DNA of 64,000 nt, from NCBI GenBank assembly GCA_036874045.1, contig CM072336.1, positions 18,285,001 through 18,349,000 on the forward strand, written 5' to 3'. A program made the position numbers and the translations under genes. The notes under the pieces were generated by a model that saw nothing but the letters and a program-made list of their open reading frames with translations, did no database searches and was not told where the DNA came from. This stretch comes from Cymodocea nodosa (lineage: Eukaryota > Streptophyta > Magnoliopsida > Alismatales > Cymodoceaceae). This document shows positions 3,275-59,212 of this stretch, piece by piece (position 1 is the first letter of the stretch; each line of letters starts with the position of its first letter).

Positions 3275-3275
3275 G

Positions 3276-29637: not shown

Positions 29638-29639
29638 AT

Positions 29640-29651: not shown

Positions 29652-29689
29652 AAGGTTGATCTCGTTAATAGATTTAACTATTTGAGATC

Positions 29690-34249: not shown

Positions 34250-34423
34250 AATTTAGGGATTTGTTCCTTATATGATTTATAATTTCATATCTCTACTCTC
34301 CAAGCTCATAACTAGGTGCTGGTTCTACTAACATCTCTGTTTTACAGCAACCTAGACATTTTGATACTCAACTATAATTGCTCCACCAACTTAGTATCTG
34401 ACTTCTCACTTCTTTTTGACAAA

Positions 34424-34590
34424 TTTGCAAAAAAGGGGGAGAAATATCATATTTTGGTAAGCAAAGCTATAGTAAAGTAGGGGGAGAAATATCTCTATAT
34501 TCCTCATGTGTTTTTCTTGTATAGATATATAGGGAGAGAAATATATGTAATACATTATAAGGTTTTTGCAATTATCAAAAAGGGGGAGAT
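34424..34590 (+). promoter_or_regulatory. Multiple polypurine tracts of the Sirevirus
   Basis: AAAAAAGGGGGAGA near 34428-34441, AGTAGGGGGAGAA near 34476-34488 and AAAAAGGGGGAGA at 34577-34589, the last touching the 3' LTR. Repetition of the tract is a Sirevirus trait. Confidence 0.85.
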
Positions 34591-36105: not shown

Positions 36106-36354
36106 GGTGTTACCGAAATATAGTATCGATTCAACCGATAAAAAAAAGAAAAAAAAAATTATTATATATATTCTTATTAGATATAATTTACGGAAAGTCC
36201 GTTGAGTTAAGTGTAACTCAACAAACTTACTCCGTTGAGTCTAGGAAAAGTTAACGAGCGTACCCTATTGAGTTAACTATAACTCAACGGGGTATTGTAG
36301 TTAAGTTCACGGACTTAGTCCATGGAGTTAACCGTAATTCCATTGATGAGAGAG
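36106..36354. repeat. Palindrome clusters before ORF B (X2)
   Basis: After the target duplication the CGGTT cluster ends with TTACCGAAAT and TTCAACCGAT (to about 36145). The GTTGAGTTA cluster follows at 36190-36354 with pairs such as TCCGTTGAGTTA/TAACTCAAC. Non-coding. Confidence 0.8.
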
Positions 36355-36505
36355 CGAGAGTTGGTGTGGGAAATGATCCGATTACCCGCCTAAACTTAGG
36401 GCTTATTTATATTAAACTTAGGGTTTAGGGGCATTATCCACAGAATCATTTAAAACTTAGAATAGTAGAGATCAGAGCGACTCTATTCCATTGCATAACT
36501 CCACG

Positions 36506-38737: not shown

Positions 38738-39176
38738 AATTGTATTGTTCGTCTACTTGTAATTGTATATATTTGTATGAAAAATATCTAACTGATTGTA
38801 ATATACACTATTCATATAAATGAATTTATGTTTATCAGATGTTTTTTTCATTTGTGTTTGAGAATGATGTATTGGATGAACTATCTTTAATATTAAACAA
38901 CTGTTTGAACATTAGGCAATCTGCTGAATGACAAGATTAAAGGCACGATAACTAATTAATGCTTGAAAATATCTACATGCTGCCAAGTAAAATATAAAAT
39001 TCTGCACAACATGAAATGAACTACAAGTTAAATATTTATATAATGTTCAGATGTAAATGAGTTTTGATTAGAATGTTGCATTAATGACATGTATTTAATT
39101 TTATTTAAGTTGGAAAAATGCAGGAGAGAAGAAAATTATAGAAGTTAATACGAGGAGTAAACTTAGAGGTTGCTAA
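38738..39176 (+). other. AT-rich spacer, X2 ORF B to ORF C
   Basis: About 440 bases, no gene seen. It is colinear with X1 and X3. Confidence 0.6.
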
Positions 39177-39365
39177 GTGTTAACTCAACGAAGTAAGTCC
39201 ATTGAGTTAACCTTAACTCCACAAGGTCAATAATATAAGGTCACTCCGTTGAGTTATCTGTAACTCAATGAAGTTAGTTCGTGGAGTTAGTAGTAGTAAC
39301 TAAAGCTATTCCGTTGAGTTATCTATAACTCAACGAGGTTAGTTCATGGATTAAGCTAAACGGTT
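39177..39365. repeat. Palindrome cluster between ORF B and ORF C (X2)
   Basis: Inverted pairs such as CCATTGAGTTA/TTAACTCCAC and TCCGTTGAGTTA/TAACTCAACGAG repeat four or more times. It is followed by about 330 bases of leader before ORF C. Confidence 0.8.
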
Positions 39366-39697
39366 ATTCTTTTAGCCACGAACGAAACTTTATGGGTTTA
39401 GCGGTTACTGAAATTTGAAATTAGAAATGGCACACGTACCCATAAAAATAGGAACCATACTACACGTTACAAGACACACTCTTGCAACGAGATTAATTTG
39501 CTTTATGGACGTGCATTATAAATATAAAACAAAATGTTGTTTACAAGTTACCAGCAATCGAGAAAAGAAAATTTGTTGGGGAACTAGAAGGAGAAGCAGT
39601 TGATTCAACTTCATCCGTCAACAACTATCTACTGAATATACAGCTTCAAACTGGTATGTAATTAATCTTCTGCTATTTTACTTTATGTTAAGAGTTT

Positions 39698-41047
39698 ATG
39701 AGCACATGGATTCGTTCTCCTAGCACTAAATGATTAGTAAGAACACCTACACTGGATTATTCAACACAGAGGTGTACTAAAAAATTTTCTGAATTGGACT
39801 TTAACGAAATCCTTAGGGGTGTAGCTAACCTTTCTTTAAAAGAGAACAAAGATATGATTGCTCTAGTAGAGGAACCATTAAGGGAAATTCTGTATCCTGA
39901 ATTAGTTGATGAACCTTCATGTATTCGATTGCCAAACTTTGAGGGAGATAGGTTTGAATTGAAATCCAATTATATTAGTCAATTGCCACATTTTCATGGA
40001 TTAGAAAGAGAGGATGCCTATTATTTCCTTAGAGAATTTAACGAAGTTTGTCAAATGATGAAAATGCCGAATATGAGTATAGATGCTATTAAACTTAGAT
40101 ATATCCCTTTTGCTTTAAAAGACATAGCTAAGAGATGGTTATATACTCTATTGCCTGATTCAATTTCTACATGGACTAAATTTTGCTCTGTTTTTCTAGA
40201 AAAATATTATCCAACACATCAAATAATTAAAAAGAAAAAGGAAATATTAATGTGTAGCCAAAAATAGGGAGGATCATTCTGGAAATATTTTGAAAGATTT
40301 AAAGATTTACTAACTCAATGTCTGCATCATGCAATGTGTAAAGCACAATTGATAGGTATAATTTATGAAGGCATAGATGTTTCAACGAAATCTTTATTAG
40401 AATCTACTTGTCATAATGGATTTTTAAAATTGTGTAGTGAAGAAGCATGGGCATACTTAGAAAACTTTGCAAAAAGAACTACACAGTGGGAAAACTCAGT
40501 TGAAGCTATTGTAGATAAAACAATATTGCCAAGGGAAATGCATGAAATAGATTCAAGCACTATGCTTGAAGTTAAATTAACTGTATTGATAAAGAAAATA
40601 GAAGAGTTATCATTAAATCAAAAACTAGCAAAAAAGAGTGCAAACGTTAATGATTTAGATATTATTTATGCTAGAAACTAGAAAGATAACTTTGGAAATT
40701 CTTATAACCCTAATTGGAGAAATCACCCAAATTTATCTTGGAGAAACAACAATTTCCAAGTAGGAGAAAATATAAATGACAAAAATATAAGTTATGAAGC
40801 ATTGATTGAACAAGGATCTAGAATAGAGAAGTTAGAAAAGATAATTCAACAATTAAACAATCGTCTAGATTTTGTATTTGAAAATGCTGCAATTCAAAAT
40901 CAAAATATAAATAGAAATATACCCCCTAGACAGAAAGAATCAATAGAAGTTAGACCTACTAGAGGATTGCCAATGCAAGTAGTACCTAACCCTATTAACA
41001 AAACTGTTAATGAAATTGATACCCCCTTTGGGAGGGTAACTGAATGA
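39698..41047 (+). pseudogene. ORF C: capsid part of Athila/Tat-like gag (X2)
   Basis: ATG 39698 to TGA 41047, 449 residues in a single frame. It has the capsid domain (about residues 90-215, LPHFHGLEREDAYYFLREF), coiled coils and YNPNWRNHPNLSWRNNN near 40700-40750. There is no CX2CX4HX4C here. In-frame stops are few: TGA at 39731 (CGA in X1), TAG at 40267 (CAG) and TAG at 40679 (CAG). It lies 3' of integrase and ORF B, an order unlike ordinary gag-pol elements. Confidence 0.87.
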
Positions 41048-41129
41048 AACATCATAACTGAAGTAACTATGTATAATATAGTAAGTAGAAAAATATAAAA
41101 AAATGTAAGTTTACTTATAGTTAATAGTA

Positions 41130-41195
41130 TCGTAGAGTTCTTACTTAACTCAACAAACTTAGTCCGTTGAGTTATGACTTAACTCCACGAGGGTG
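41130..41195. repeat. Palindrome cluster between ORF C and ORF D (X2)
   Basis: TTAACTCAACAAAC, GTCCGTTGAGTTA and TTAACTCCACGAG in 66 bases just upstream of the F-box start. Confidence 0.78.
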
Positions 41196-41243
41196 TGAAG
41201 TAGCTATGTTAATTTTTGTTTATGTCATACAGAATCACAACAG

Positions 41244-42378
41244 ATGGAATTGATGAAATTACCACTAGATGCACTAAGGGAAATATTGAGTAACTTGTCA
41301 ACTGAAGACTTGTGCAAATTGTGTTGTGTATCAAAGGAAATCAAAGACTATTAGAGAAAAATATTTTCATGGACTACAAGCTACAAAGATGACTAAGATT
41401 AGAGATGGATTTTTATGGAAGTCATTTAATCATAGTTCAATCAGCTATGAATATTTGAATATGGACGAAACTATTGGAATTCCACCCAATACATTAGAAG
41501 GAATAGATCAGATTATGGGGATGGATGAAGGATTAATTGTATACAAAACCAAACCAAGGTATGCAATTCTGTTACCTGATATTTTGATTAGAAATCCTAT
41601 CACAAGAGAAGAATGGAATATAGGAAGACCTAATAGATATGAAGTACCATTTGAAAATTGTGGGTCAACTTTAATCTTATCTAAAAAAAATTTGACCATT
41701 CCTAAAAAATTATATTATTGGAGACCAACTAGAAACTGGGATGAAGATTTATGATTAAGTGTGTATAATTTTCTGAATAGATCTTGGACTAAAAATATTA
41801 TGATATATCTAGGACAGAAATCATTAATTAACAACATGCATGTCATACTTGATGGATATATATATCTAGTCATAGATATATCAGTTGCATTTAGATCTGA
41901 TTTATACATAGTAAGCATAGACAATTATGATGATTTTATAGAAATATTACCTATACCAGGTGATATAGCTAAACCACCATCTGCAGAATATGATAAAATT
42001 CAATTAGGAATGTAGTATAATGAATATGATGATCCTACTTTATGTTTGATAAGATGATGGGATGAATTGAAGAAATTTCAAATATAAATTATAAAAGACC
42101 TAAATGAATAGAAGTGGGAAGAGGAATATATTGAAATAGATGTAGAAATAAAAACAGCTACACTATCTTGGAACAGAAGAGGATCTCTTTCTGCATTTCA
42201 TTTCATTAATGGAAATACACTTATATTTAGTATTGATAACATACTGCAAGTTTACAAATTAAAAAGGAAAATAGATTGCATTGAAACAGAATTGATAGCA
42301 AGAAGAATTATGCCAAAAAAGTTTGCTTGGACTGACACGTTTATTCCATTTGTTACTACTTTTCAATCATGTTCTTAA
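41244..42378 (+). pseudogene. F-box protein of family X, decayed copy (X2)
   Basis: It starts ATG 41244, with the same N-terminus as X1 and X3. The F-box region is interrupted by a frameshift near 41350 (lost base). Further stops lie near 41752, 42014, 42057, 42085 and 42110; most are TGG codons in X3. The associated region still reads NPITREEW and the C-terminus ends SCS like the others. It cannot be translated in full. Confidence 0.85.
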
Positions 42379-42498
42379 AGTGTGATTCTATGTTTTTAAT
42401 GTTGTGTGTAGTCTACATTTATTTTTAGAGAAAAAAAATGAAAAACAAAAATATCAATCTAGTTTGTTGGTATCTGTTCTGGGAAACTAATTGACTTG

Positions 42499-42541
42499 CT
42501 TGTGAGCCACCAAAGGCATAGGAGCTTGGGTTCCACACAAG
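42499..42541 (+). ncRNA. Conserved hairpin block (X2)
   Basis: Outer arms CTTGTG and CACAAG, with the 31 bases between nearly identical to X1. It lies about 120 bases after the F-box stop. Confidence 0.45.
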
Positions 42542-44142
42542 ACACTGATTAATAAGTTATGTTTTGTTGTTATATATTTTGCTTTTAATTGTGAATGAAA
42601 AGTTTTTCAGATTCAAAAATTGGAAGATATTGAAGGAGATACAAAAGAACAAGGTATGTAATTAATTACTTATCCTGAATTTACATTTAAACTCAATTCG
42701 TGGAGTTATTCATTAACTCAACGAATTAAGTTTGTTGTGTTAGGTGTTAAGTCAATGAAACAATATTCATGCCTACTACAATTACTATATTTACTGAAAA
42801 ATCTTTTACATTGAGGATAATGCAAAATGTAGGTATGGGGGGGGACGTAATTAAAGTAACAACCATGCAATTTTGTTAATTAGAAGAATTAAAATAGTAC
42901 TACAAAAGTTCTATGGAAATTGAAAAATTTTGATGAAGTTGCTATAACTATCCGATAATTAAAATTACAAAATTTTTAAAGAACTATAACTACTAAATTG
43001 TATATTTATAATCTTATATAAGATGTTATAAATTTTACTACTCATACAAATCTAGATATAACATCTTATGTTTTTGCTGAAATTTATGAGTTTAATAGTT
43101 TCACGATTTTAAAAAGAAATCAGAATGTTTAACTGAAACTCAGTAAATTATCTGAAATCTTGAAAGAGCTGAAATGTTGATTTTTGGATTAAAGGAAATA
43201 CATATGATCAATGATACATTTAATTTGATTGATTAAACTTGTAGAATGATTTATGTGTAGATCTTATTAAAATACAAAAAAAGTATGAGCTTATTGATAT
43301 GGATTCATATTTTTAGTAAATAATAAGAGCAGGAATATACGAGATTTGTGTTTCATTGCATCTATTTAATGAAATACGTACATATACTGTGTTGAAAAGA
43401 AAAAAAAAGAGGAAAAAAAGAGAAAAGATTTGAGAGTTTATTGACTTGTTTGATCACGAGCCTTTTGTACTTAAGTAGATAGGTATGTAAGGATTGTTGA
43501 CCTGAAAAAGAACTCTTTAAATCTGGCAACCTAAGATCCTGATCAGATCTGGGATTGTCGACTGAAAGCTCGATACATGGGTACACTAGAAAGCTCTTGT
43601 ATGATTCAAGCTTGTCAAATTAACTTTTAAAAGTACAAATATGCATATACTATTTTGAAAAGATACAAGTGTTTTGTGAAATACAGATATCTTCTGAATT
43701 GAGTATATGTTCTATTATCTAAAATTGTTGAATTATGAATCTAGAGTAGACTTTTGAGGTTGTTTATTTGAGATACAATTCTTTATTCTACTTGTCTTAA
43801 TTATATTGAATTGGATTGTGTTTTGATTCATATGTACTTGAAATTTATTCTGGAAATCATATTGGAAAATTCAGGATGACAGATGCTAAAAAGAAAAAAA
43901 TGATGATATAATTAACACCTATGTGATGCTGATATATTTTGTATGTAATTTACATATATTCAAAATATATTTGCAAGTTGAAGAGTAGAAAATAAAGTTA
44001 AAACAGATTACTGAAGCATACAGAATATCTATATAGTAATCTAATTTATTATTCTGAAGACGAGCGAAATGAAGAATTAAATCTAGCACTTTAGAAAGAT
44101 CAATTAGTTAGATCTTAGTTTGCTAAGGGACTAGCAAAATTT
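42542..44142 (+). other. 3' untranslated region of X2
   Basis: AT-rich, no protein. It holds a GTTGTGTTA/TTAACTCAACG cluster (42690-42760) and the stretch ACATTGAGGATAATGC followed by a G-run at 42834-42846. It then matches X1 and X3 to the polypurine tract. Confidence 0.7.
42820..42847 (+). promoter_or_regulatory. Internal second polypurine tract (X2)
   Basis: AAATGTAGGTATGGGGGGGG resembles the terminal tract at 44143 and follows ATTGAGGATAATGC. Athila/Tat elements carry a similar TTGAGGACAATG...TTTGGGGG stretch after pol. X1 keeps it (about 11690-11710); X3 has lost the G-run (near 46060). Confidence 0.55.
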
Positions 44143-44156
44143 AAGTATGGGGGAAG
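44143..44156 (+). promoter_or_regulatory. Polypurine tract of X2
   Basis: AAGTATGGGGGAAG, directly followed by the LTR start TGTTTAGAATG. Confidence 0.8.
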
Positions 44157-44403
44157 TGTTTAGAATGAAAAAGTGCATAATATTAATGATTAAATGATGG
44201 TTAATTACATAATTTTTAGCTTATCATATGAAAATTAAGTCATTATGTTATAATTGCACTGTTATATGCTTTAATGAAAGAATCTACATAATTCCAAGAA
44301 ATTAGCGTTAATTTAGTACATTTATGAACTATCGGTAAATTGCAAGCTGTGAAATTCTTTAGTATTCGAATTTTCTATTATTTCGAAGAGTTATGTTTAA
44401 TGT
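44157..44403 (+). repeat. 3' LTR fragment of X2
   Basis: The first 247 or so bases of the X LTR, starting TGTTTAGAATGAAAAAG. It runs directly into the inverted 3' LTR fragment of X3 near 44403. Confidence 0.8.
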
Positions 44404-44747
44404 ACCGGATAGTTAGAGATAACTCACTGAAAGTCCACTTAAGTCATGCATTATGATTTCGACACATGTACTTCAGGAAATAAACATAACTCTTCGATAC
44501 ATTAAGCATAACTGTTCGGTACATTAAACATAACTGTCTGAAATAACAAAAAATTCGGATACTTAAGAATTTCACAGCCTGCAATTTACCGACAGTTCAG
44601 AAATATACTAAATTAACATTAATTCCCTGAAATTAAGCAGATTCTTTCATTAACGCATATAATAATGCAATTATAACAAAATGGCTTAATTCTCATATGA
44701 TAAGCTAAATATTTTGCAATTAATCATCATTTAACTATTAATATTAT
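44404..44747 (-). repeat. 3' LTR fragment of X3
   Basis: It matches 58820-59205 of the 5' LTR. The LTR start TGTTTAGAATG has been deleted: the purine tract GGGGGA runs straight into AAAAGTG. Together with 44157-44403 it makes a near-palindrome of about 590 bp. Confidence 0.8.
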
Positions 44748-46320
44748 ACACTTTTTCCCCCATACCTAAATTTTGCTAGTCCCTTAGCAAACTAAGATCT
44801 AATTAATTGGTCTTTCTAAAAGTGCTAGAATTAATTCTTCCTTTTTTCTTCTGTTCAGCATAAGAACTTGTATTATTATATAGATATTCTGTATGTTTCA
44901 GTAATCTGTTTTAACATTGTTTTCTCCTCTTCAACCTACAAATACACTTAGAATATATGCAAATTACATACAAAGTATATCATCATCACATAGGTGTTAA
45001 TTATATTATCATTTGTTCTTCTTTTCATCATCTATCATCCTGAATTTTCCAATAAGACTTCTAGAAGAAATTTCAACAACATACGAATCAAAGCACAATC
45101 CAATTCAATATGATTAAGACAAGTAGAATAAAGAATTGTATCTCCATTAAACAACTTCAAAGGTCAATTCTTAGATTCATACTTCAACAATTCTAGATAA
45201 CAGAAAATATACTCGATTCAAAAGATATCTGTATTTCACAAAACACTTGTATCTTTTCAAAATAGTATATGTATTTTTGTACTTTAAAAGTTAATTGGAT
45301 AAGCTTAAATCATACAAGAGCTTTCTAATGTACTCATGTAACGAGCTTTCAGTCAATCCCAAATATGATCAGGATCTTAGGTTGCCAGATTTCAAGAGTC
45401 ATTTTTCAGGTCAACAATCCTTACATACCTATCTGCTCAAGTACAAAAGGCTTTTGATCAAACTAGTTAATAAACCCTCAAAGTTTTTTTTTTTTTTTTT
45501 TTTTCACATACTGCATATGTATGTATTTCATTAATACAAATGCAATAAAACACCAATCTCACATACTTCTGCTTTTATCATTTACTGAAAATATGAATCC
45601 ATAACAATAAGCTCATACTTTTTCTGTAATTTAATAAGATCTACACATAAATCATTCTACAAGTTTAATTAGTCAAATTAAATGTATCTTTAATCATATG
45701 TGTTTCATTTAATCTAGAATTCACATCTCAGCTCTTTTAGGACTTCAAATAATTTACTGATTTTTCATTAAGCATTCTGATTTCATTTTAAAATCATGAA
45801 ACTGTTAAACTCATGAAATTCAGAAAAAAAAACATAAGATACTATATCTAGATTTGCATAAATACTAAATTCTATAGCATCTTATATAGCCTTCTAAATA
45901 TAACATTCAAGCAGTTACAGTTTATAAAAATTTTACTGTCTCAAATATCGGATGGTTACAGCAAGTTCATAAAAAAGATTTTAATTTCCACAAACTTTTC
46001 AGTACCATTTTAATTCCTTTAATTAAGAAACTTACATGGCTGTTACTTTAATTACCTACATTTTGCATTGTCCTCAATGTAAAAGATTTGACAATAAATA
46101 CGGTAATTGTTGTAGGCATGAATACAGTTTCGTTGATTTAGCACCTAACTCAACGAATGAGTTTAAATCTAAATTCAGGATAAGTAATCAGTTACATACC
46201 TTGTTTCGTTAGTATCTCCTTCTGCATATTTCGATTTTTGATTATGAAAAACTTTTTATTCACAGATAAAAGTAGAATATATAACAAAATAATAGTTAAC
46301 AGATATTTATAAATCATTGT
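44748..46320 (-). other. 3' untranslated region of X3
   Basis: AT-rich and colinear with X1 and X2, with a T-run of about 20 near 45485. The palindrome cluster (46128-46160) is partly deleted. The polypurine tract reads GGTATGGGGGA on the minus strand at 44755-44765. No gene. Confidence 0.7.
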
Positions 46321-46363
46321 CTTGTGTGGAACCTAGGCTCCTACGCCTTTGGTGGCTCACAAG
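46321..46363 (-). ncRNA. Conserved hairpin block (X3)
   Basis: Same length and outer arms (CTTGTG/CACAAG) as in the three other copies, with three or four substitutions in the loop. Confidence 0.45.
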
Positions 46364-46520
46364 CAAGCCAATTGGTTTCCCAACACAAATACTAACAAAC
46401 TGGATTGATATTTTGTTTTTGTTTTGTTTTTTTATTTTTTTTTATAAAATAAACTAAAACTAAAATTTTTCTAAAAGTAAATGTAGAAAACACACAACAT
46501 TAAAAGCACAAAATCACAGC

Positions 46521-47657
46521 TTAAGAACATGATTGAAAAGTAGAAACAAATGGAATAAACATGTCAGTCCAAGCAAACTTTTTAGGCATAATTCTTCTTG
46601 CTATTAATTCTATTTTAATGCAGTTTGTGTTCCTTCTTAATTTGTAAACTTGCAATATATTATCAATGCTAAATACAAGTGTATTACCATTAATGAAATG
46701 AAATGCAGAAAGGGATCCTTTTCGGTTCCAGGATAATGTAGCAGCTTCTATTTCTACATCTATTTCAATATATTCCTCTTCCCACTTCCATTCATTTATG
46801 TCTTTCATGATCCATATTTGAAATTTCATCAACTCATCCCACCATCTTATCAAACATAAAGTAGGATCATCATATTCATTATACGACATCCCTATTTGAA
46901 TTTTATCAAATTCTGCAGATGGTGGTTTAGCTATTTCTCTCGGTATAGGCAAAATTTCTATATATTCATCATAACTATCTATGCTTACTATGTATAAATC
47001 AGATCTAAATGCAACTGATATATCTGTGACTAGATATATATATCCATTAAGTATGACATGCATGCTATTAATTAATGATTTCTGTCCTAGATATATCATA
47101 GTGTTTTCAGTCCAAGATCTATTTAGAAAATTATACACACTCAAGCATAAATCTTCATCCCAATTTACAATAGGTCTCCAATAATATAATTTTTCAGGAA
47201 TGATCGAATTTTTATCAGAAAATATTAAAGCCGACCCACAATTTTCAGTTGGTACTTCATATCTATTAGGTCTTCCTATATTCCATTCTTCTCTTGTGAT
47301 AGGATTTCTAATCAAAATATCAAGTAATAGAATTGCATACTTTGGTTTGGTCCTGTATATAATTAATCCTTCATCCATCCCCATAATATGATCTAGTCCT
47401 TCTAATGTATTGGGTGGAATTCCAGTAGTTTCTTCCATATTCAAATATTTATGGCTAATTGAACTACGATTAAATGACTTCCATATGAATCCATCTCTAA
47501 TCTTAGTCATTTTTGCAGCTTGTAGTCCATGAAAATATTTTTCTCTAACACAATCTTTAATTTCCTTTGATACACAATACAGCCTGCACAGATCTTTAGT
47601 TGACAAGATACTTAGTACTTCCCTTAGTGCGTCCAGCGGTAATTGTATCAATTTCAT
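46521..47657 (-). CDS. Intact F-box protein carried by retrotransposon family X (ORF D)
   Basis: 378 residues with no interruption, the only undamaged ORF of the X copies. Residues about 5-45 form an F-box (LPLDALREVLSILSTKDLC then CVSKEIKD), the Skp1-binding motif of SCF ubiquitin ligases. Residues about 100-370 look like an F-box-associated domain: RNPITREEWNIGRP, the LCLIRWWDELMKFQIWIMKD stretch and a repeated beta-strand pattern. Substrate unknown. The start is supported by conservation with X1 and X2 (M-[KE]-[LF]). It lies at the 3' end of the element, after the capsid ORF, with a palindrome cluster between. It may be a captured host gene that spread with the element. A role in countering silencing, by analogy with the F-box P0 proteins of poleroviruses, is only a hypothesis. 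No separate promoter is evident. Confidence 0.85.
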   Translation of the reverse strand: MKLIQLPLDALREVLSILSTKDLCRLYCVSKEIKDCVREKYFHGLQAAKMTKIRDGFIWKSFNRSSISHKYLNMEETTGIPPNTLEGLDHIMGMDEGLIIYRTKPKYAILLLDILIRNPITREEWNIGRPNRYEVPTENCGSALIFSDKNSIIPEKLYYWRPIVNWDEDLCLSVYNFLNRSWTENTMIYLGQKSLINSMHVILNGYIYLVTDISVAFRSDLYIVSIDSYDEYIEILPIPREIAKPPSAEFDKIQIGMSYNEYDDPTLCLIRWWDELMKFQIWIMKDINEWKWEEEYIEIDVEIEAATLSWNRKGSLSAFHFINGNTLVFSIDNILQVYKLRRNTNCIKIELIARRIMPKKFAWTDMFIPFVSTFQSCS

Positions 47658-47721
47658 TTGTTGATTCTATATAACATAAACAAAAATTTTAGTAGAGACA
47701 AAAATTAACATAACTACTGCA

Positions 47722-47790
47722 CACCCTCGTGGAGTTAGGGCATAACTCAACAGATTAAGTTCGTTGAGTTAAGCAATAACTCTACGATAC
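47722..47790. repeat. Palindrome cluster between ORF C and ORF D (X3)
   Basis: CGTGGAGTTA, CATAACTCAAC, TTCGTTGAGTTA and CAATAACTC in 69 bases, equivalent to X1 and X2. Confidence 0.78.
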
Positions 47791-47843
47791 TATTAACTAC
47801 ACATAAACTTATATATATATATAGTTACTTCAATTATATTGCT

Positions 47844-49191
47844 TCATTCAACTACCCTCCTAGAAGAGGTATCAATTTCATTAACAGTTCTATTGACAAG
47901 GTTAGACATTGCTTGTATTGGCAATCCTCCAATAGGTCTAACTTCCATTGATTCCTTCTATCTAAGCGGTATGTTTCTATTCTGATTTTGAATTGTAGCA
48001 TTTTCAAATACAAGATCCAGACGATTGTTTAATTGTTGGATTATCTTTTCTAATTTCTCTATTCTAGATCCTTGTTCAATTAATGCTTCATAACTTATAC
48101 TCTTCTCATTTATATTTTCTCCTCCCTGGAAATTGTTGTTTCTCCAAGATAAATTCGAGTGATTTCTCCAATTAGGGTTATAAGAATTTCCAAAGTTATC
48201 TTTCTGGTTTCTAGCATAAATAATATCTAGATCATTAATGTTTGCATTCTTTTATGCTAGCTTTTGATTTAATGATAACTCTTCTATTTTCTTTGTTAAT
48301 TCAGTTAATTTAACTTCAAGCATAGTGCTTGAATCTATTTCATGCATTCCTCTTGGCAATATTCTTTTATCTGCAATAGCTTTAGTCGAGTTTTCCCACT
48401 ATGCAGTTCCTTTTGCAAAGTTTTCTAAATATGCCTATGCTTCTTCACTACATAGTTTCAAAAATCCATTTTGACAAGTAGATTCTAATAAAGATTTTGT
48501 TGAAACATCTATGCCTTCATAAATTATACCTATTAATTGTGCTTTACTCATTGCATGATGTGGACATTGAGTTAGTAAATCTTTAAATCTTTCAAAATAT
48601 TTCTAGAATGATTCACCCTGTTTTTGGCTACACATTAATATTTCTTTTTTTCTTTTTAATCGTTTGATGTGTTGGATAATATTTTTCTAGAAAAATAGAG
48701 CAAAATTCAGTCCATGTAGAAATTGAATCAGGCGATAAAGTATATAACCATCTCTTAGCTGTGTCTTTTAAAGCAAAAGAGATATATCTAAGTTTAATAG
48801 CATCTATACTCATGTTCGGAATTTTCATCATTTGACAAATTTCGTTAAATTCTCTAAGGAAATAATAGGCATCCTCTCTTTCTAATCCATGAAAATGTGG
48901 CAATTGACTAATATAATTAGATTTTAGTTCAAACCTATCTCCCTCAAAGTTTGGCAATCAAATACAGGAAGGTTCATCAACTAATTCAAGGTACAGAATT
49001 TCTCCTAATGGTTTTTCTACTAGAGCAGCCATATCTATGTTCTCTTTTAAAGAAAATTCCTGGGTAGGTGTTCTTACTACCTTGTTTTAGTCCAGTTCAG
49101 AAAATGTTTCAAAACACCTCTGTGTTGAATATTCCTAGGTAGGTGTTCTTACTAATCGTTTAGTGCTAAGAGAACAAGTCCATGTGTTCAT
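47844..49191 (-). pseudogene. ORF C: capsid part of gag (X3)
   Basis: Same domain layout as X1 and X2. The N-terminal region is rearranged: about 30 bases encoding FNEILRGVAN are replaced by a partial repeat of the upstream GTAAGAACACCTACCCAGG sequence (49045-49135). The capsid domain (48957-48640) is open and well conserved. Frameshift and stops near 48650, 48605, 48405, 48255 and 47960 break it. Position 3' of ORF B is the same as in the other copies. Confidence 0.85.
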
Positions 49192-49517
49192 AAATAAAAT
49201 AGCAGACGATTAATTACATACCATTCTGAAGATTTCTATTCAGTAAATATTTGTTGATAGATGAAGTTGAATCAGCTACTTCTCCTTCCAGTTCCCCAAC
49301 ACATTCTCCTTTCTTTCAAAAGTGCTGGTAACTCATAAATAACATTCTATTCTATATATATAATGCACATCCATAAAGTAAATAAATCTCGTTGCAAGAA
49401 CGTGTCTTGTAACGTGCAACGTGATTCCTATTTTTATGGGTACGTGACCACTACTAATTTCAAATTTTGGTAATCGCTAAGTCGACGAAGTTTCGTTCGT
49501 GGTTAAAAGAATAATTG

Positions 49518-49995
49518 TTCTGCTTAATCCACGAACTAACCTCATTGAGTTACAGGTAACTCAACGGAACAACGTCGGTTACTGTTGCTAACTCCAAGGA
49601 CTAACTTCGATTTAGTCAAACATTTATCCTTTAAGTCCTATAAAAACTCGAACATTTATCTTTTAACTCTTCGAGTTTTTGCACCTGCAAAACACGTGAC
49701 TGAATAAAGTAATTTATCTATTTATTATTCCTTTTATAAAACTCGAATAGTTATCTATCCATGCGTATCAAAACTCCAACAGTTATCTAACTATTCGATT
49801 TTTCATTACCGAACGCACCTAGAAAACACGTGACAACTTAAAACATTAAAAACACACGTGTAGATAACTTAACTATACGAGTTTTTAACATAAAGTATTC
49901 GACAAAAATGAGACATTAACTATCCGAAAGTTTAACTATCAACGGAGTGACCTTATATTATATTACTGGCCTCATTGAGTTAACACTTGGCAACC
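49518..49995. repeat. Palindrome cluster between ORF B and ORF C with foreign insert (X3)
   Basis: The flanks match the X1 and X2 clusters (CATTGAGTTACAGGTAACTC at the left, CAACGGAGTGACC at the right). The middle, about 25 bases in X1, is replaced by the 335-bp Sirevirus LTR piece. Confidence 0.8.
49604..49938 (-). repeat. Internal fragment of a Sirevirus-like LTR inside X3
   Basis: Read on the minus strand it aligns base for base, with few gaps, to about 2218-2553 of the LTR at 2042-3274. It includes the two CACGTG boxes and CGAAGAGTTA repeats. Neither LTR terminus is present and no target duplication is seen, so it was not an integrase-made insertion. Confidence 0.85.
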
Positions 49996-50435
49996 TCTAA
50001 GTCTACTCCTCGTAAGTAACTCTATTTTTTTTTTTCCTCTCCTGCACTCTACTAACTGAAATAAAGTTAAATACATGTCATTAATGCAGCATTCTAATCA
50101 AAATTTGTTTAAATCTGAACATTATATAAATATTTAACTTGTAGTTCATTTCATGTTATGCAGAATTTACATTTTATCTTGTAGCATGTAGCTATTTTCA
50201 AGCATCTATTATTTAATCCTGTCATTCAACAAACTGTAAATCTTTTTAAACATTCATGCATAATGTTCCACAAATTATATAACATTCAATATAGTTCATC
50301 CATTTCATCATTCTAAACACACATGAAAAATATATCTGAAAAACATATATTCATTCATATGAATAAATTACAATACAATCAAATCAGATATTTTTCATAC
50401 AAATATATACAAGTACAAGTAGACGAACTATACAA
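49996..50435 (-). other. AT-rich spacer, X3 ORF B to ORF C
   Basis: No gene. It is colinear with 15386-15828 and 38738-39176. Confidence 0.6.
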
Positions 50436-51948
50436 TTAGCCTCTATTCCTAAGTTCATCTATTTCCTTTTGGAGTTTTTCTATTTGTTGCTCTAATTGTT
50501 CTATCCTTTCTACAACTCCAATAATGCCTCCAAAAGGTACAAATACTTCAGTTGCAGCATAATTTATGTATTCTTTCACTGAAATGGTTCTTGATCTTAT
50601 CCTTTTGGATGTCCATTTCGTGAAATCAATACAATCTACCATCAATATAGGTATCAAATCTCCATAAAATAATTTCTTCTTTGTAGACTTCATTTTGGAT
50701 AGGAAGACTTGACACCAATTAACTTGAATTATGTTCACAACTACATAAGTGGCCCACTTGACAAATTGACTCAATTCAATGTCATGGCCCTGTCATTGGT
50801 AGACATTTTTAATCAAAATGTTAGCTATCATGTGTGCTTTACCATTTAAATACTTCAGTCTATTTAATAATGGCACACCAGGATTGATAGCCAAACTGTC
50901 CTTGATTTCCTACTCTATCCATTCAACGACAGTTGTGCTTTCCAAAATTTCTTTTCCTTCATTCTTCAATCTACAAATGTTGTGGAGAAGCTCTGGTGTT
51001 ATCTGTACATCAGCTTCCTCCACGTTGGAAATTAATTGTCCTTCTTCTTCTCTTAAATTAGCATAAAAGCAGGGCACTAGATTTTCATATATTGCATGCC
51101 CTTTCTGTTGAGAAATAAATTGTAATAGACCCTGGAACTCAAATAATTCCTTAATTTCTTGCATTCCGTCCTAATTTACTGGTCTACTGTATATGATATC
51201 ATAACCCCTAATCTCTTGGTATTTATTATAAGCTTCCTGACTCCAAAAGTGTACTTCATTCAGAACTGTTGCTTCAGTCGGGTCAAGAATGTGACTTTGT
51301 TGTTCTAGAGGGGTTTGTTCTTGATCTTCCTCTTCCATAGGCTGAACTTAAACTTGTTGAAAATGTTCTACAGATTCCTGAACATTTGCTTCTACTTTTG
51401 TCTATGGTGGTGAGCCGGCAAAACTCTCCACTCTGTCTTGAAGTGTTTCATTAAATTTAGTCGAATCTGCAAAGTCATTTTTGTCCATATGGCTTTGTTT
51501 AGCTTCTTGTTCATTATCTGTTCTTTCTTCTTCCTCTTGACTACTAATCTACATTGTCACTATTCTTTCTGATTCTTTGGCAGATTGGGATGGAGTCACG
51601 GGCAATTCAGTTTCTACCCTATTTTTTGTTTCTTCTTATTGTACAGGCTGCAAACTAATTCCAGTCTGATTTTCTTCTTTTCTTTACACTTGAATTCCAG
51701 CCTGATTTTCTTCTTTTCTTTGCTCTTGCTGTTGCTGCTCTAATTCTTGTTTCCATTATCTGGGGTATTTGTATACCCAAATCCACTAAAACTCTTCTCA
51801 AGTTGAAAAGTTCGGATTCTACCTTCGGTAGCTCTTTTTCTCTTGTCGTATTTCAAATTTTCTGTCGCGTGTGCCATTCCTCTGACTCTTTCAGAAATTT
51901 TGATGTGTCAACAACATCTTCTCAGAACTCAGGCGCCATCTTCCTCAT
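50436..51948 (-). pseudogene. ORF B: plant-transposon-protein-domain ORF, internally deleted (X3)
   Basis: It starts ATG 51948 (MRKMAPEF). About 700 bases of the Glu/Pro-rich middle are missing compared with X1 and X2. The C-terminal domain (about 51230-50560) retains PCFYANLREEEG, ELLHNI, LSQFVKWATYVVVN and KLFYGDLIP. The C-terminal coiled coil has IEQLEQQIEKLQKEIDEL. Stops near 51172, 50912 and 50793 and several upstream interrupt it. Survival of the N- and C-terminal parts suggests the middle is a linker. Confidence 0.7.
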
Positions 51949-51949
51949 C

Positions 51950-52098
51950 GTGGAATTACAGATAACTCCACGGACTAAGTCCGTGGACTTAACTACAGTA
52001 CTCCGTTGAGTTACAATTAACTCAACGGAATAAGCTCATTGAGTAACTCAAGACTCAACAGAGTAAGTTCGTTGAGTTAAGCATAACTCAACGGACCT
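51950..52098. repeat. Palindrome cluster before ORF B (X3)
   Basis: Pairs such as TCCGTTGAGTTA/TTAACTCAACGGA and TTCGTTGAGTTA/TAACTCAACGGA, immediately 5' of the ORF B start. Confidence 0.8.
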
Positions 52099-52149
52099 CC
52101 CGAACAGACAGATATAATAAAAAAATACTTAAGATAATAGTTTTTTCTT

Positions 52150-52330
52150 TCTTTCGGTTTTTACCGATTTAACCGATACTTTGTTTCGGTCAGACCGACT
52201 TTTTTTCCAATTGAACCGATACTATGTTTCGGTAAAACAAAATATTTTTTTTTTTACTAAAAATTAATATAGATTTTTTATGTTCCGGTCATACCGATGG
52301 ATCTAGTCTGTTGAATCGCAACGATTTTTT
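52150..52330. repeat. CGGTT-palindrome cluster after integrase (X3)
   Basis: TTCGGTTTTTACCGATTTAACC, TTTCGGTCAGACCGAC and similar units with AT-rich spacers, matching X1 and X2 at this position. Confidence 0.75.
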
Positions 52331-52400
52331 ATATTTTATAATTTTTTTATTTTTATTTTTTTATAATAAAAATGATAATAAAATAAAAACCGATTTCTTA

Positions 52401-55400
52401 CTAAGTAAAGCTCGAGTAGTCCTCTACTCTTACTTCTTCTATAATTTCTAAGGATCTTTTTGGTATTTTCAAAATAGGTCTAAGTCTTTGTCCATTTACT
52501 TTAAATATATTCTGATTTTAGGATTTTCAATCTCAATAGCTCCATAGGGATAAATATTTCGAACTATGTATGGTCCTGCCCATCTAGATCTTAATTTTCC
52601 TAGATGGTTATGGAGACTAGCCATGTAAAGATATACTTCTTATCCTATTTTAAAGCTTTTTGGAATAATTTTCCTATTATGCCAGAATTTCATTTTCTCT
52701 TTTTCTCTTACAGTCTTCAAGTAAGCTTCATTACTAAATTCTTCTAATTTAATTAATTACATTTTCCTATTTTCAACAGCTTGATTTAAATTAGTGTTCA
52801 GAGTTTTTAATGCCCAATAAGCTTTATGTTCTATTTCAACTAGTAAATGACAACTTTTTCCATATAATAGCCTAAAAGGTGACATACCTAAGCTTGTCTT
52901 ATAAGCAGTTCTATAAGCCCAAAGTGCATCTATTAATCTATTAGCCCAATCTGTTTTAGTAGGATTTACTACTTTTTCTAAGATTAACTTAATTTGTTTG
53001 TTAGCACTTTCTACTTGTCCACTTGTTTGCGGATGACATGATGTTGCAATTTTGTGGTTTACTCCATATTTCTTCATTAAGGCTTCAAAACTTCTATTAC
53101 AGAAATGAATTCCTCTATCAGTGATAATAGCTTTAGGTATTCCAAACCTAATAAATATATTGGTTCTTATAAATTGTATTACCACTTTGTTGTCATTAGT
53201 TTTTGTAGGAATAGCTTCTATCCATTTAGATACATAATTCACCCCCAACAATATGTAATTAAATTGATTAGACATAGGAAATGAACCCATAAAACCTATT
53301 CCCCACACATCAAAGATTTCAACCTCAACAATAGGATTAAGAGGCATTATATTCTTCTTTGATATTCTTCCTATTTGTTGACATCTTAAACAACTTAAGC
53401 AATATTTATGAGCATCTTTGAATAGTGTTGGCCAATAAAATCCACATGTAGAATTTTTGCAGCAGTTTTCCCTAAGCCAAAATGCCCTCTACAAGCTTGG
53501 TCATGACAGAAAGACAATATGCTCTAATATTCAGTTTCTGGAACACACCCCTTTAAAACCATATTAGGACATTTCTTAAATAAGTATGGGTCTTCCCAAT
53601 AGTAATATTTTACTCTTGAGAAAAATAATTTCTTATCCTGTCTATTCCAATCCTTAGGTGTTAAACCAGTAACTAAGTAATTAACTATGTCTGCATACCA
53701 AGGTATTGTGTTGATGGTCATTAATTGTTCATTAGAAAAATTATCTTTAATTTCAATATTTGATTTTTCTATTTGTAATCTTGATAAATGATCTGCTACT
53801 ATATTCTCACAACCTTTTTTATCATTAATTTCTAAATCAAATTCTTATAATAATAATATCCATCGGATCAATCTAGGCTTAGTTTCTTTTTTTTCTATTA
53901 GGTGTTTTAAAGCTACATGATCCGTGTATACTATTACTTTAGCTCCAATCAGATATGATCTAAACTTTTCCAAGGCAAACACAACAACTAATAGTTCTTT
54001 TTCAATAGTTGTGTAATTAACTTGAGCATCATTTAAGGTTTTGCTTGCATAATGAATCACTCTAGGAGATTTTTCTATCTTCTGTCCCAACACTGCTCCT
54101 ACATCAAAATCAGATGCATCACACATTAATTCAAATGGGTGGCTCCAATCAGGTGCTTGAATTATAGGAGTTGAAATTAAGCTAGTTTTAAGTCTGAAAA
54201 ATGCTTCCTTGCAATTTTTATCAAAGTTAAATGAGACATCTTTTAATAGATTAGTTAAAGGTTTAGCTATTTTGCTAAAGTCTTTAATAAATCTTCTATA
54301 AAAACCAGCATGTCCTAGAAATGATCTAATATCTTTTACTGATTTTGGTTCTAGTAGATTAGAAATTACTTCTATTTTAGCTTTATCTACTTCCAACACT
54401 TTCTTACAAACAACATGCCCTAAGACTATTCCTTGTTTAACCATGAAGTGACATTTTTCTCAATTTAGAAACAAATTTTTTTCCATACAGCGTTTTAATA
54501 TTTGGTCTAAATTTTTTAAACAAACTTCATATGAATTGCCATAAATAGTAAAATCATCCATAAATATTTCTAAGAAATCATCAGTCATTCTAGTAAATAT
54601 GCCCTACATACACCTTTGAAAGGTGGCTGGTGCATTGCATAATCCGAATGACATTCTCTAAAAAGCATAAGTTCCATTAGGACAGGTGAAAGTTGTTTTC
54701 TCTTGATCCTCTAATGCTACTGAAATTTGGTTATATCCTGAATACCTGTCTAAGAAATAAAAATATTCTTGCCCTGCTAATCTTTCCAGCATTTAATCTA
54801 TAAAAGGTAAGGGAAAATGATCTTTCCTAGTCACAGCATTCAGCTTTCTATAGTCTATACATACTCTCCAGCCTGATTGAATTCTAGTAGGTATCAAGTC
54901 TTGACTTTCATTCCTAATAATTGTTCATCTTGATTTCTTGGGAACTACATGGATTGGGCTAACCCACGAGCTATCAGAAATCGAATAAATTATGTCATTA
55001 TCTAACCATTTTACTATTTCTTTCCTAACTACTTCTTTAAGGTTTGGATTTAATCTCCTCTCAGGAATTCTAACAGGTTTAGCATTCTCTTCTAAATATA
55101 TGTGGTGACAGCATAAAGTTGAACTTAATCCTTTTATATCAGTCATAGTCCATCCTATTGCTTATTTATAACTTTTCACTACATCTTTTAATTTAGCTAT
55201 TTGATCCTCTTTTAAATCTAAAGCAATAATGATTGGACAGATTCATTTCTCTTCCAGAAATATATAGGTTAATTCAAGAGGTAAAGGTTTTAATCCTTAA
55301 TGTTGCCCATGAGAAGCTAGAGCTCCTAATTGAAGATCATCATTTTCTAAATTAATTTTTTCCTAATCTCCTTCTATATTTATGCTTTCACTTTCCTCTA

Positions 55401-57045
55401 AAGTTTCAGAATTGATTTGCCTATTTAATTCTTCTTGAATCACATCATCTAACATATCTCCTTCATCCTCTAAAAAGTCTATGGTATGTAAGGACATTTC
55501 TAACTCCTCAAACATTTCTAGTTTGAAAATGTTTAATTGAGTATCCTCATTACCATATGATAACTTCATTACTCTACTTTTACAATTTATAACAGCCCTT
55601 GATGTTGCTAAAAATGGCCTTCCCAAAATTAAAGATGTATCACTATTTTTATGCTTAATTTGTTGGGAATCCAAAATTATAATATCAATAGGATATATAA
55701 AGTTTTTGATTTTAATTAAGACATCCTCTATTTTTCCTCTAGGGTATCTTATACTTCTATCAGCTAATTGAATAAACGTACTAGTAGGAGTTAAGTCTTC
55801 TAATCCTAAGGATGCAAATATATCACTTGGCATAACATTTATACCTACACCTAAGTCTATTAAGGTTCTTTCGAGAATGGTATTTCCTATGGTGCATGAT
55901 ATAACAGGGATTCCAGGATTAGATAACTTTTTAGGAATTTGTGGCAGAAATAGGGAACTACTTTGCTCAACTAAAAAGACCTTTCTAAGAACTTTTCGCT
56001 CTCTTTTCTTAGTACACCACTTGTTCAGAAATTTAGCACAAGGTAACATTTTCTGCAATAGATCTAACAAAGGAATGTTAACTTGCACTTTTTCAAAAAT
56101 TTCTCTGATTTTTTCTTGTTTTTCAGGTATTATTTGTTGTAATCTTTCAGGATAGGGTGCTAAAAATTGTGATTTAAAAGATTCTTTTTCTTTCGTTTGA
56201 TTTGTTTGATCATTTTTAGCCTCATTAGCAGATTCAGATTGTTCTTTAGTGATTTCTAGATTTTCAGCTATTACATTTTCCTTATCATTTTGATTTTTAC
56301 TCTTATCCACCTTCATATTATTTTCATGTTGAGTTCTTGATGGTATATCAATTCCAAATCTTAATGTTACACATACATCTTCCAGATTTTTGTTACTCTT
56401 ATGATGTTTTTGTATATCATTTTCGTGATTATGATCTTCAATTGTTTTTAGTTTTAAAGTGCATTCTTTAAATTCTCTTGCATTAGTATTTTCTTTTGGC
56501 TGTGTATTTTGCAAATTATGCAAATCTATAACATTATAATTTCCATTGTCCTATTGCATAAATTGTATTTTCATTGTATATTCGTCCAATGCTTTTAGTT
56601 TTCTTTCCAGATCATCTAATCTCATTGCATTCAATTTTTGATCAATTTTCATTATGGTTTTTTCAGTTTCGTAAATTATATCCATTTTAGGTTATGAATA
56701 TGCTTCCTTATAGTTTAATTGGTTGACTTCTTGTTGCTGACACATAAAATGTTCTAGTTTGTCCAAGATTTGCTCTATACTACGCTCCAGTCTGTCATAC
56801 CTATCCCAAACTTCAGTGCCTCTCAACATCTTACACATTCTATACTGACCATTAGTTGGGTAAACTATAGGATTCTCATACTCGGCTCTATTATATTAAG
56901 GATAATTCATTTGTTGTTCATGGGATCTAGCCATCTACAAATGTCTCAATTTCAAACAGTCAGAAATGTCGTGTCCTTCAGAATTGCAGAATTCACATAT
57001 GTTAACTACAGATTTCAAAAATCTTTGAGCATAAGCATATGCCAT
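52401..57045 (-). pseudogene. ORF A: zinc knuckle-protease-RT-RNase H-integrase (X3)
   Basis: It starts ATG 57045 (MAYAYAQRFL) and ends at TAG 52401. Here the zinc knuckle is perfect: CEFCNSEGHDISDC (CX2CX4HX4C), 20 residues from the start. TLRSG reads TLRFG (about 56360). Protease reads DLGVG near 55850, in a 386-codon open stretch (56523-55363). RT has FMDD at about 54560, RNase H runs 54150-53880 and integrase 53720-52760 with HHCC and the DDE residues. The C-terminus is GPY-like. Stops lie at 56990, 56700, 56553, 55170, 54927, 54795, 53846 and others. Nothing resembling capsid lies between the LTR and the zinc knuckle. Confidence 0.88.
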
Positions 57046-57120
57046 ATTCTCAATTATAGAAGAAAACACACAATACTCTAGCTATTAAAACGAAACAGCT
57101 CTAACAGTTTCTTATATGAA

Positions 57121-57213
57121 TTCCCCAGCAACAGTGCTAGAAAACTTGTTTGGATCTCCAGCACGGCACTAGAAAACTTGATTGGTTACCCAGCAACGTG
57201 CTAGAAAAACTTG
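57121..57213 (-). promoter_or_regulatory. Three tandem primer-like sites (X3)
   Basis: On the minus strand CAAGTTTTTCTAGCACGTTG, CAAGTTTTCTAGTGCCGTG and CAAGTTTTCTAGCACTGTTG occur with a 31-32 base period. The last continues CTGGGGA, closest to the tRNA-Asp-type site. Confidence 0.68.
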
Positions 57214-57959
57214 GATTTGTTGACTTCTGTTTTTACTTAGTTAATTTATCTTTATGCCTATCACTGAATTCCTTTTTAGAAGTAAACAAACAACCTTTCA
57301 CACAAATTAGATATTAATTCTAATTTGTATTTTAACTGCAAGTGCACAGTGTCTATTGTATTAGTGTGCAAGTACAAGTCGATCCCATAGGGAATTGCTT
57401 AAGAATTGCGAACTGTTCCATTTTTAACAATCAAATTTATATATTCAATAAGCTCTCCGTTGAGTTACAGTTAACTCAACGGACTAACCTCATGGACTTA
57501 AGTTAACTCCACGAGCTTGTCTTTCCTACTTAATACTGCTATTTACAGAGGAATTCGGCCAACCATTGGGCGGTTCCACTGATTGTAAATAACATTAATT
57601 AAGCTCTTTAATGTTAGTAAACACTGGATTTATCATTTAGCAATGCTAACATTCAGATAATTCAAACAGTAACCATTAAAATCTTTAAGTCTATTGAATG
57701 AACCAATTTCAATAAATTGTAAAACTAAAACAAACATAAAACATTCACAACACTGACAAAGATAACATTAATCACGATACAAAACAAACAATACAATACC
57801 CAAATACAAAATACAAACACATATAAGTTGTTTTTGGTATTTTTATTTTGATATGAGCATGAAAATGGGCGAAAGGTGAAATGTAAAGTAATCTCAATCG
57901 ATAGTAAATACTTCTGTCACTACATGCGACGCGATTACACCACTAAAAATTAAACCTCT

Positions 57960-58510
57960 TACAATTCTGTCTCCTCTCCCTATAGAATCGCGAGTCCAGA
58001 ATTGCAAGATGATCTCCTCTTCAGCATACAGGCATCAACCCGAAGCCAAGGCTAGAAGCTTTACGATCTCCTGAGATATGAGTCGGCGCTTGGTGAAAAT
58101 GGCTTCCCTCTCCACGACGCGATCACTCCTCACAGTGGTTGTCAAGCATTGTGTTTGGCTCGAAATCGACCCGACATCAGGAAAGTATCCTCACAGACCT
58201 TTGATGGTTGGTGATTATGGTGGTGGTGGTGATGGTTGGTGTGGTACTTCAGAGAATTGTCGATGCTGCCTGCAAAAAGCTCGATGATCCTCCTTTGCAC
58301 ACATTGGCCACACCCATCGGCCACCACACTTACTTTTTTTTCTTCTTTTCTTTTATATTTCTTCAATGGTAACTGCTTCTGCTTGAATGATCGATTGGAT
58401 TTCCTTCATTCATATCAACGACGATGATTTCTTCTTCCTTCGACAAGTGAATTCCTACATGATACGTGTGATCGTGGTTTTTTCTTCCAACTGTCTTGTT
58501 CCTGCAACCG
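57960..58510 (-). other. Exon-like segment with small ORF in the X3 LTR
   Basis: It lies just downstream of the TATA box. A 74-codon ORF (58366-58142) is Lys-rich at the start, has six consecutive His near the middle and ends RFRAKHNA. The ATG precedes the expected transcription start, so translation is doubtful. The segment ends with GAATTGTAAGAGG, a possible splice donor. It may derive from a host gene; no family recognised. Confidence 0.35.
58351..58360 (-). promoter_or_regulatory. TATA box of the X3 LTR
   Basis: AAATATAAAA on the minus strand, identical in position to the X2 box at 21754. Confidence 0.5.
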
Positions 58511-59212
58511 CTACAGTGGCATATTAGAAAATAAATGGTCCGTGGAGTTATAGATAACTCAACAGACTTGCTTCGTTGATTTAACTATAAAACACGTGCA
58601 TAAATTTAACTATTTGATGCTTAGGTGCATTTCGGATACTTACAAAATTAACTATCTGATGCTCAAATGCATTTCGGATACTTACAGATAACTCACCGAT
58701 ATATAACTTAAGTCAATCTTCTAGATCACGACACATGTCATCAGTAGTTTTATAATAAAAGGAGATTTTAGAGAGTTACAAGTCTAACTATCTGATGCTA
58801 AGCTACAATTTCGGTTAGTTAGAGATAACTCACTGAAAGTCCACTTAAGTCATGCATTATGATTTCGACACGTGTACTTCAAGAAATAATAAAATATTCT
58901 TTTAAAACATAACTGTTCGGTAATTTAAACATAACTCTTCGGTACATTAAGCATAACTATTTGATACGTTAAACATAACTATCTGAAATAATAGAAAATT
59001 CGGATACTTAAGAATTTTACAGCCTGCAATTTATCAACAGTTCAGAAATGTACTAAATTAACATTAATTCCTTGAAATTAAGCAGATTCCTTCATTAACG
59101 CATATAACAGTGCAATTATAACAAAATGGCTTAATTCTCATATGATAAGCTAAATATTATGCAATTAACCATCATTTAATCGTTAATATGATGCACTTTT
59201 TCATTCTAAACA

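Follow-up and report, generated by a model that had tools for sequence, protein, structure and literature searches.

Long terminal repeat (LTR) retrotransposons place gag first, and the way in which Gag–Pol is translated determines how far capsid outnumbers enzyme. In the description given in PMC6317226, the first open reading frame (ORF) holds GAG or GAG-PROT, and an additional RNase H distinguishes Tat elements, including Ogre, from Athila. Athila families I and IIIb are listed with gag, reverse transcriptase (RT), integrase and env, in that order, and family VII with gag, RT and integrase (Table 1 of PMC2410132); the same report describes Athila elements of the LTR-gag-LTR and gag-plus-env types, and recombination among Athila families. 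Diaspora, an Athila relative, is presented with a tRNA-Asp primer, a 2,524-bp LTR and a distance of 873 bp from LTR to gag start, termed unusually long (PMC1142308). Here we analyse one 64,000-nucleotide stretch of Cymodocea nodosa DNA (CM072336.1, positions 18,285,001–18,349,000; the window), in which three Athila-type copies, X1, X2 and X3, carry their capsid gene downstream of integrase; the X copies examined are those inside the window. We consider it likely that X1–X3 are decayed Athila-clade Ty3/Gypsy copies whose RNA genome had pol first and capsid last, and that they retrotransposed in this form with gag under selection.

Position of capsid and zinc knuckle

Pfam scans of stop-to-stop ORFs (curated cut-offs applied to family matches), tblastn and a capsid profile place the capsid behind integrase in X3, in X2 and in X1 where it is not deleted, as a preliminary description of this DNA had claimed. 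On the minus strand, X3 reads 5′ LTR, zinc knuckle–protease–RT–RNase H–integrase, ORF B, capsid, F-box, polypurine tract (PPT) and 3′ LTR (Table 1). Pfam finds RT, integrase and then a capsid that passes the cut-off (PF03732, 5.7e-8) in X2, which contains a copia insertion at 28003–36105 with GGTGT on either side; this target duplication identifies the two halves of X2 as one element. A deletion in X1 removed knuckle, protease and RT, and the remaining order is that of X3, with capsid (PF03732, 7.7e-16) behind integrase pieces that do not reach the Pfam threshold (7.9e-5 and 0.021) but are 89–93% identical to X3 integrase by tblastn. Integrase follows RT and RNase H in the X copies, as is usual for Gypsy elements, and gag 5′ of pol, an Athila trait, is not found in them. 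Capsid pieces used as tblastn queries hit the window at three sites and no others, each of them behind integrase. The capsid profile, which includes eight outside relatives, was compared with every six-frame stop-to-stop peptide of at least 20 residues in the window; it matches only the downstream sites of X1, X2 and X3 (next match, E 0.68), is covered over almost its whole length by X1 and X2, and detects no 5′ capsid relic in X2 or X3, the 5′ part of X1 being deleted and uninformative.

The zinc knuckle lies at the opposite end of the element. Among the X copies an intact CCHC pattern occurs only in the 5′ ORF of X3; the window has two further CCHC matches, at 63958 and 9819, both interrupted by stops and belonging to none of the X copies, and neither the CCHC pattern nor a knuckle profile finds a knuckle in the 3′ gag of any X copy. 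Canonical relatives run capsid, CCHC knuckle, YNPGWRNHPN segment, LRSG and protease (for example, P0086), and P0026 from Humulus holds capsid and protease in a single protein. The knuckle part of a canonical knuckle-to-YNP profile matches only the 5′ ORF of X3 (E 0.004); its YNP part hits the three 3′ gags and nothing else (6.5e-9, 1.4e-8 and 2.6e-7; next match 0.32). Among the 120 listed of 436 protease relatives of X3 (E ≤ 0.001), a pattern survey for CCHC and YNP finds YNP after CCHC in 8 of 11 CCHC-bearing proteins; the YNP pattern was not found after the knuckle in the other three, P0008, P0054 and P0108. A single cut cannot leave the knuckle at one end of the element and the gag segments that normally stand on either side of it at the opposite end, whereas two gags with complementary losses can, and we infer that gag duplication followed by complementary loss fits better than a clean cut between capsid and knuckle. 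The preliminary description was therefore correct in assigning knuckle (5′ of protease) and capsid (3′) to opposite ends, but gag was not divided where it had supposed, between capsid and knuckle, since the YNP segment stays with the capsid.

Mobility and selection

The LTR terminus TGTTTAGAATG, or a variant differing by one to two bases, is found in four settings: at the 5′ ends of X3 (59212, flanked by GTACT) and X1 (20610, flanked by ATCTT), and directly behind the PPT of X2 (TATGGGGGAAG followed by TG, 44158) and that of X1. The first bases are missing from the 3′ LTR of X3. Because X1 and X3 share this terminus in unrelated flanks, the rearranged form appears to have been copied by retrotransposition; judged from its sequence, the rearranged Athila-type element is real and multiplied in its new order, in agreement with the earlier proposal. 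That proposal also placed an LTR at both ends of X3, which holds in so far as the 5′ and 3′ LTRs match over 354 columns (Kimura two-parameter distance (K2P) 0.079), but the matched sequence is only part of an LTR whose probable length is about 2.0 kb and the 3′ LTRs are truncated, those of X2 and X3 being cut off where they meet at 44404–44415. Every X copy in the window lacks one intact end.

Using what we take to be the tRNA-Asp letters, we located primer-binding site (PBS)-like sequences, which come three in a row rather than singly in X3, in X2 (22900–23000) and in a fourth fragment, X4 (20740–20910), and in X2 and X3 are found shortly before the knuckle ORF. In X3 the ATG of this ORF (57045) is about 75 bp past the last PBS-like site. 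The decayed X2 site at 22981–22995 fits the 15-base pattern with three mismatches (0.01 expected by chance). If these sites are PBSs, their position suggests the LTR length of about 2.0 kb. Near 50320 in X3, an LTR-start-like 12-mer, TGTTTAGAATGA, was noticed by eye and is a candidate only.

From 10281 onward, the X copies alternate in orientation, neighbours meeting head to head or tail to tail, with a direct fusion between the 3′ LTRs of X2 and X3. This arrangement favours a chance chimera that multiplied at the locus solely through segmental or palindromic duplication of DNA, its gene order never part of a mobile RNA; the terminus shared by X1 and X3 in unrelated flanks, the K2P of 0.06–0.20 between copies (depending on module) and the selection on gag described below speak against such a history, which we judge highly unlikely. 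Long inverted repeats are also hard to assemble, and an assembly error could have joined different elements. Three copies at these distances nevertheless have the same order in different surroundings, with LTR, PPT and PBS-like sites at the expected places, so that an artefact is the least probable explanation of those we considered.

The relocated gag has been under purifying selection. Plain dN/dS ratios below 1 by the Nei–Gojobori method (NG86) were rejected as proof, because noncoding stretches also gave 0.44–0.67, and were replaced by neutral simulation (400 runs per comparison) with substitution rates taken from noncoding parts of the X copies themselves. Relative omega for gag was 0.33 between X1 and X3 and 0.46 between X2 and X3 (0 of 400 simulations as low in each), and 0.60 between X1 and X2 (4 of 400). 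Six noncoding control readings, from two stretches in three frames each that also set the neutral rates, gave 0.71–1.12, the lowest with 25 of 400. Divergence between copies was also lower in gag (K2P 0.062 and 0.089) than in the noncoding DNA that follows the F-box (0.097 and 0.142). As all three copies share the location of gag, selection by parsimony acted after the move. Relative omega was 0.37–0.44 for ORF B (0 of 400 in each of three comparisons), 0.45, 0.50 and 0.62 for the F-box (0, 0 and 10 of 400), 0.27 for RNase H (1 of 400) and 0.64 for the knuckle ORF (28 of 400).

These values bear on whether the family was non-autonomous for capsid, relying on the Gag of another Athila while its own 3′ gag product interfered with or regulated particles. 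The missing knuckle of the 3′ gag agrees with such a role, and PMC11963269 mentions gag-less parasitic elements, which PMC2410132 cites as well. We find this unlikely, given that selection on gag (0.33–0.60) is comparable in strength to selection on pol (0.27 for RNase H and 0.59–0.79 elsewhere) and that X1 and X2 retain an almost complete capsid match.

The coding frames of the X copies are decayed: knuckle and protease of X3 share one frame, yet four stops lie between them, and X2 has one stop in the stretch shown. The copies also form a mosaic. K2P between copies is 0.17–0.19 for the ORF B block, compared with 0.066–0.084 for integrase and 0.062–0.089 for gag, and synonymous divergence is 0.37–0.68 for ORF B compared with 0.10–0.24 for gag. 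A block two to three times more diverged than the integrase and gag on either side suggests that ORF B was exchanged between sublineages.

Table 1 Coordinates of the X copies and their parts within the window
Feature	Position	Strand	Details
X3 5′ LTR	57208..59212	-	Start TGTTTAGAATG at 59212; inner end ~57150–57210, inferred from PBS-like repeats
X3 three tandem PBS-like sites	57121..57203	-	tRNA-Asp type, transition-decayed
X3 5′ ORF start	56551..57045	-	CCHC knuckle 56956–56997; without capsid; in-frame stops
X3 protease ORF	55363..56550	-	395 aa; Pfam matches below cut-off
X3 RT and RNase H	53845..55362	-	RNase H ORF 53845–54459: PF17917 1.3e-33, PF17919 4.1e-30
X3 integrase with flanking linker and tail	52420..53844	-	Core ORF 52757–53488, PF00665 4e-11
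X3 palindromic hairpin cluster, integrase/ORF B gap	51949..52096	-	Cluster scan
X3 ORF B	50436..51550	-	Start approximate; weak Transposase_32 (PF20167) similarity
X3 palindromic unit, ORF B/gag gap	49524..49576	-	Sequence
X3 relocated gag	47847..49035	-	Athila-type capsid and YNPNWRNH segment; without knuckle; stops and one frameshift
X3 capsid match in gag	48631–48957	-	PF03732 4e-7, above cut-off
X3 palindromic unit, gag/F-box gap	47728..47786	-	Sequence
X3 F-box ORF	46521..47666	-	381 aa; PF00646 2.6e-8
X3 3′ LTR fragment	44404..44757	-	Preceded by PPT TATGGGGG; joined tail to tail with X2 3′ LTR
X2	21101..44415	+	Order of X3; nested copia
X2 gag	39734–41047	+	
X2 F-box	~41235–42378	+	
X2 PPT	from 44146	+	
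X2 3′ LTR	start 44158	+	
X1	10281..20610	-	5′ LTR start 20610; RNase H/integrase remnant, ORF B, gag, F-box, PPT, 74 bp of 3′ LTR
X1 gag	13504–14775	-	
X1 F-box	12162–13310	-	
X4 fragment	20699–21080		Carries PBS-like sites

Lineage and origin of the gene order

The RNase H and integrase of X3 are separated by 106 residues that match no Pfam family at E ≤ 0.1, and no additional RNase H was found there, which makes the element Athila-like rather than Tat or Ogre. ORF B resembles Transposase_32 (PF20167) too weakly to pass the curated cut-off in either of two copies (E 0.0012 in X3, 0.09 in X2). Pfam gives no match of the ORF B pieces to PF03078, the Athila ORF-1 domain, recorded in 16% of Athila elements in PMC6317226; nor is PF10536, the plant mobile domain of the extra ORF of Ogre, among their matches, an ORF that the same source records in 57% of Ogre elements and thus not universally. 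In sunflower Athila, a sense 3′ extra ORF is described with partial similarity to Transposase_32, a domain presented as related to Athila ORF1 (PMC11728184). Taken with this precedent, the weak match indicates that ORF B probably occupies its usual Athila 3′ position, unmoved, and that gag alone was displaced. A distant ORF B relative (about 32–39% identity) lies at 1041–1394, at the left edge of the window, upstream of a lone copy of the F-box.

Palindromic hairpins punctuate the elements. Defining a cluster as two or more GTTGAGTTA/TAACTCAAC units, we counted 18, six each in X1 (spanning 11780–20343), X2 (21360–42734) and X3 (46132–58575), and none in the 23.7 kb that make up the rest of the window; when the window was shuffled 50 times by mononucleotides, the mean was 0.7 and the maximum 3. 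Their places match across X1–X3: two in or near the 5′ LTR and one each between integrase and ORF B, ORF B and gag, gag and F-box, and F-box and PPT. No cluster lies inside an X gene; single hairpin units do occur within genes. The clusters may be recombination points or RNA signals. LTRs of the copia element nested in X2 bear similar hairpins, TTCGGAGAGTTA..TAACTATCCGAA. The gap between ORF B and gag in X3 holds about 330 bp (49605–49937) that X1 and X2 do not, with an 86% match at the left edge of the window (2221–2551).

Hairpins at each junction, and a circular order of modules that is unchanged, are the points in favour of circular permutation, in which an Ogre- or Athila-like ORF1-gag-pol element passed through a circular or autointegrated form and was opened between capsid and knuckle, with a shift of the LTR boundary. 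The old junctions, however, show no detected LTR or PBS relic. Blastn detects none in the gap between integrase and ORF B, and none was detected between ORF B and gag beyond shared hairpin units: strict alignment of the gag-side part to the LTR gives only these units in all three copies, and the ORF-B-side part gives one long AT-rich match to the X2 LTR in X3 (4 of 200 shuffles) that is not repeated in X1 (26 of 200) or X2 (112 of 200). A PBS-like site in the same gap was discarded as chance (27, 162 and 237 of 300 shuffles). Permutation is further opposed by the Athila-like place of ORF B, by the lack of a detected additional RNase H, and by the loss of the knuckle from the middle rather than the end of the 3′ gag, which no single cut produces. 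The Ogre-type circular order of the preliminary description is abandoned on these grounds, and we consider circular permutation unlikely; recombination at the palindromic spacers is still a possible origin.

In the duplication model that we prefer, an Athila of normal order would have switched templates with another Athila that carried gag, and in this way acquired a second gag downstream of ORF B. The 5′ copy would then have lost its capsid and the 3′ copy its knuckle, complementary losses through which each gag half became necessary. The resulting gene order suggests that capsid and enzymes were made as separate proteins. Full-length RNA would yield knuckle–Pol without Gag fusion, the RNA-binding knuckle standing at the Pol N terminus, and genomic RNA would bring this separately made protein into the particle. 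Capsid, ORF B and F-box protein would each be produced on their own, the simplest route being RNAs that are spliced or start internally; all three copies retain a donor-like GTATGTAA and, ahead of the gag ATG, an AG, candidate splice signals recognized by eye. A possible role of the F-box protein is to recruit a ubiquitin ligase of the host. No F-box relatives were found at E ≤ 0.001 among 1282 candidates. A lone fourth F-box copy at 3272–4668, with no adjoining gag, is bounded by inverted repeats (3232–3275 and 4674–4719) that hold ACACAATTCACCCCCCTCTTGTG, and looks as if the F-box cassette had moved alone.

A wider interpretation, which we put forward tentatively, is that the X copies represent a pol-first plant Ty3/Gypsy lineage without Gag–Pol fusion, dating from the separation of X and P0008 or earlier, with the knuckle on Pol, the capsid made from a separate 3′ gene, and hairpin-bounded cassettes (ORF B, gag and F-box) that can be exchanged among elements. 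P0008 is the best protease match of X3 and mutual best by score (56% identity over 215 residues; the next matches are P0009 at 52% and P0010 at 51%), and it starts at the knuckle (residue 20) with no capsid before it. A protease tree of 118 rows joins P0008 and X3 (100/99), with a program warning that two long branches meet; in 35-row trees from which P0008 or X3 was removed, the remaining one stands alone on a long branch. As a second pol-first member, P0008 is a lead, not proof. Three scans of viral contigs confirmed no relatives.

Several observations weigh against a pol-first element that multiplied under selection. The copies come from the window only, and none has both LTR ends and a target duplication. 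The knuckle is intact in X3 alone and mutated in X2, and coiled-coil similarity between 5′ ORF and 3′ gag, which duplication predicts, was equalled in 0 and 5 of 300 shuffles in two cases and in 47, 96, 152 and 207 of 300 in others. Selection is modest on RT (relative omega 0.59, 12 of 400) and protease (0.68, 16 of 400) and not significant on integrase (0.67 and 0.79; 59 and 95 of 400). Gag stops are not clearly depleted (6, 6 and 2, compared with 4.1, 4.9 and 5.0 in neutral simulation), as follows if the copies are long dead and decayed after insertion. The P0008–X3 join unites two long branches, the P0008 contig (JGI) is 2,210 bp with its upstream context unseen, and because P0054 and P0108 also lack YNP after the knuckle, that absence alone is not special.

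Comparison with known elements

Our literature search, covering titles, abstract starts and passages, found no published capsid gene 3′ of integrase. If the order described here is true, neither gag-first order nor Gag–Pol fusion is needed for multiplication, and how Pol enters particles without fusion becomes a testable question in plants. Annotation that assumes a fixed domain order could have missed such elements. Foamy viruses, an unrelated lineage, make Pol from its own mRNA without Gag fusion, and their gag is still 5′ of pol. Among bdelloid elements, Juno is described with an extra zinc knuckle inside pol and Vesta1b with a gag lacking a knuckle; both differ from the X copies in that gag and pol are ORF1 and ORF2, in the usual order (PMC5408684).

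Closer to the X copies are the non-autonomous LTR-gag-LTR and LTR-gag-env-LTR Athila elements (PMC2410132) and TR-GAG elements, in which a gag unit travels without pol and which are the likely type of donor. Recombination of such Athila elements with pol-carrying ones is reported in PMC2410132; the X copies differ in carrying gag behind pol within one element. With the Athila clade, as described for Athila of Arabidopsis (PMC2410132) and Diaspora of soybean (PMC1142308), they share the order of protease, RT, RNase H and integrase, the lack of an additional RNase H and an Athila-type capsid; a putative tRNA-Asp-like PBS (decayed in X), a probably long LTR and a 3′ ORF with weak similarity to Transposase_32 may be further features in common. 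They differ from that clade in having capsid downstream of both integrase and ORF B, in the knuckle that opens the 5′ ORF, and in the F-box gene before the 3′ LTR.

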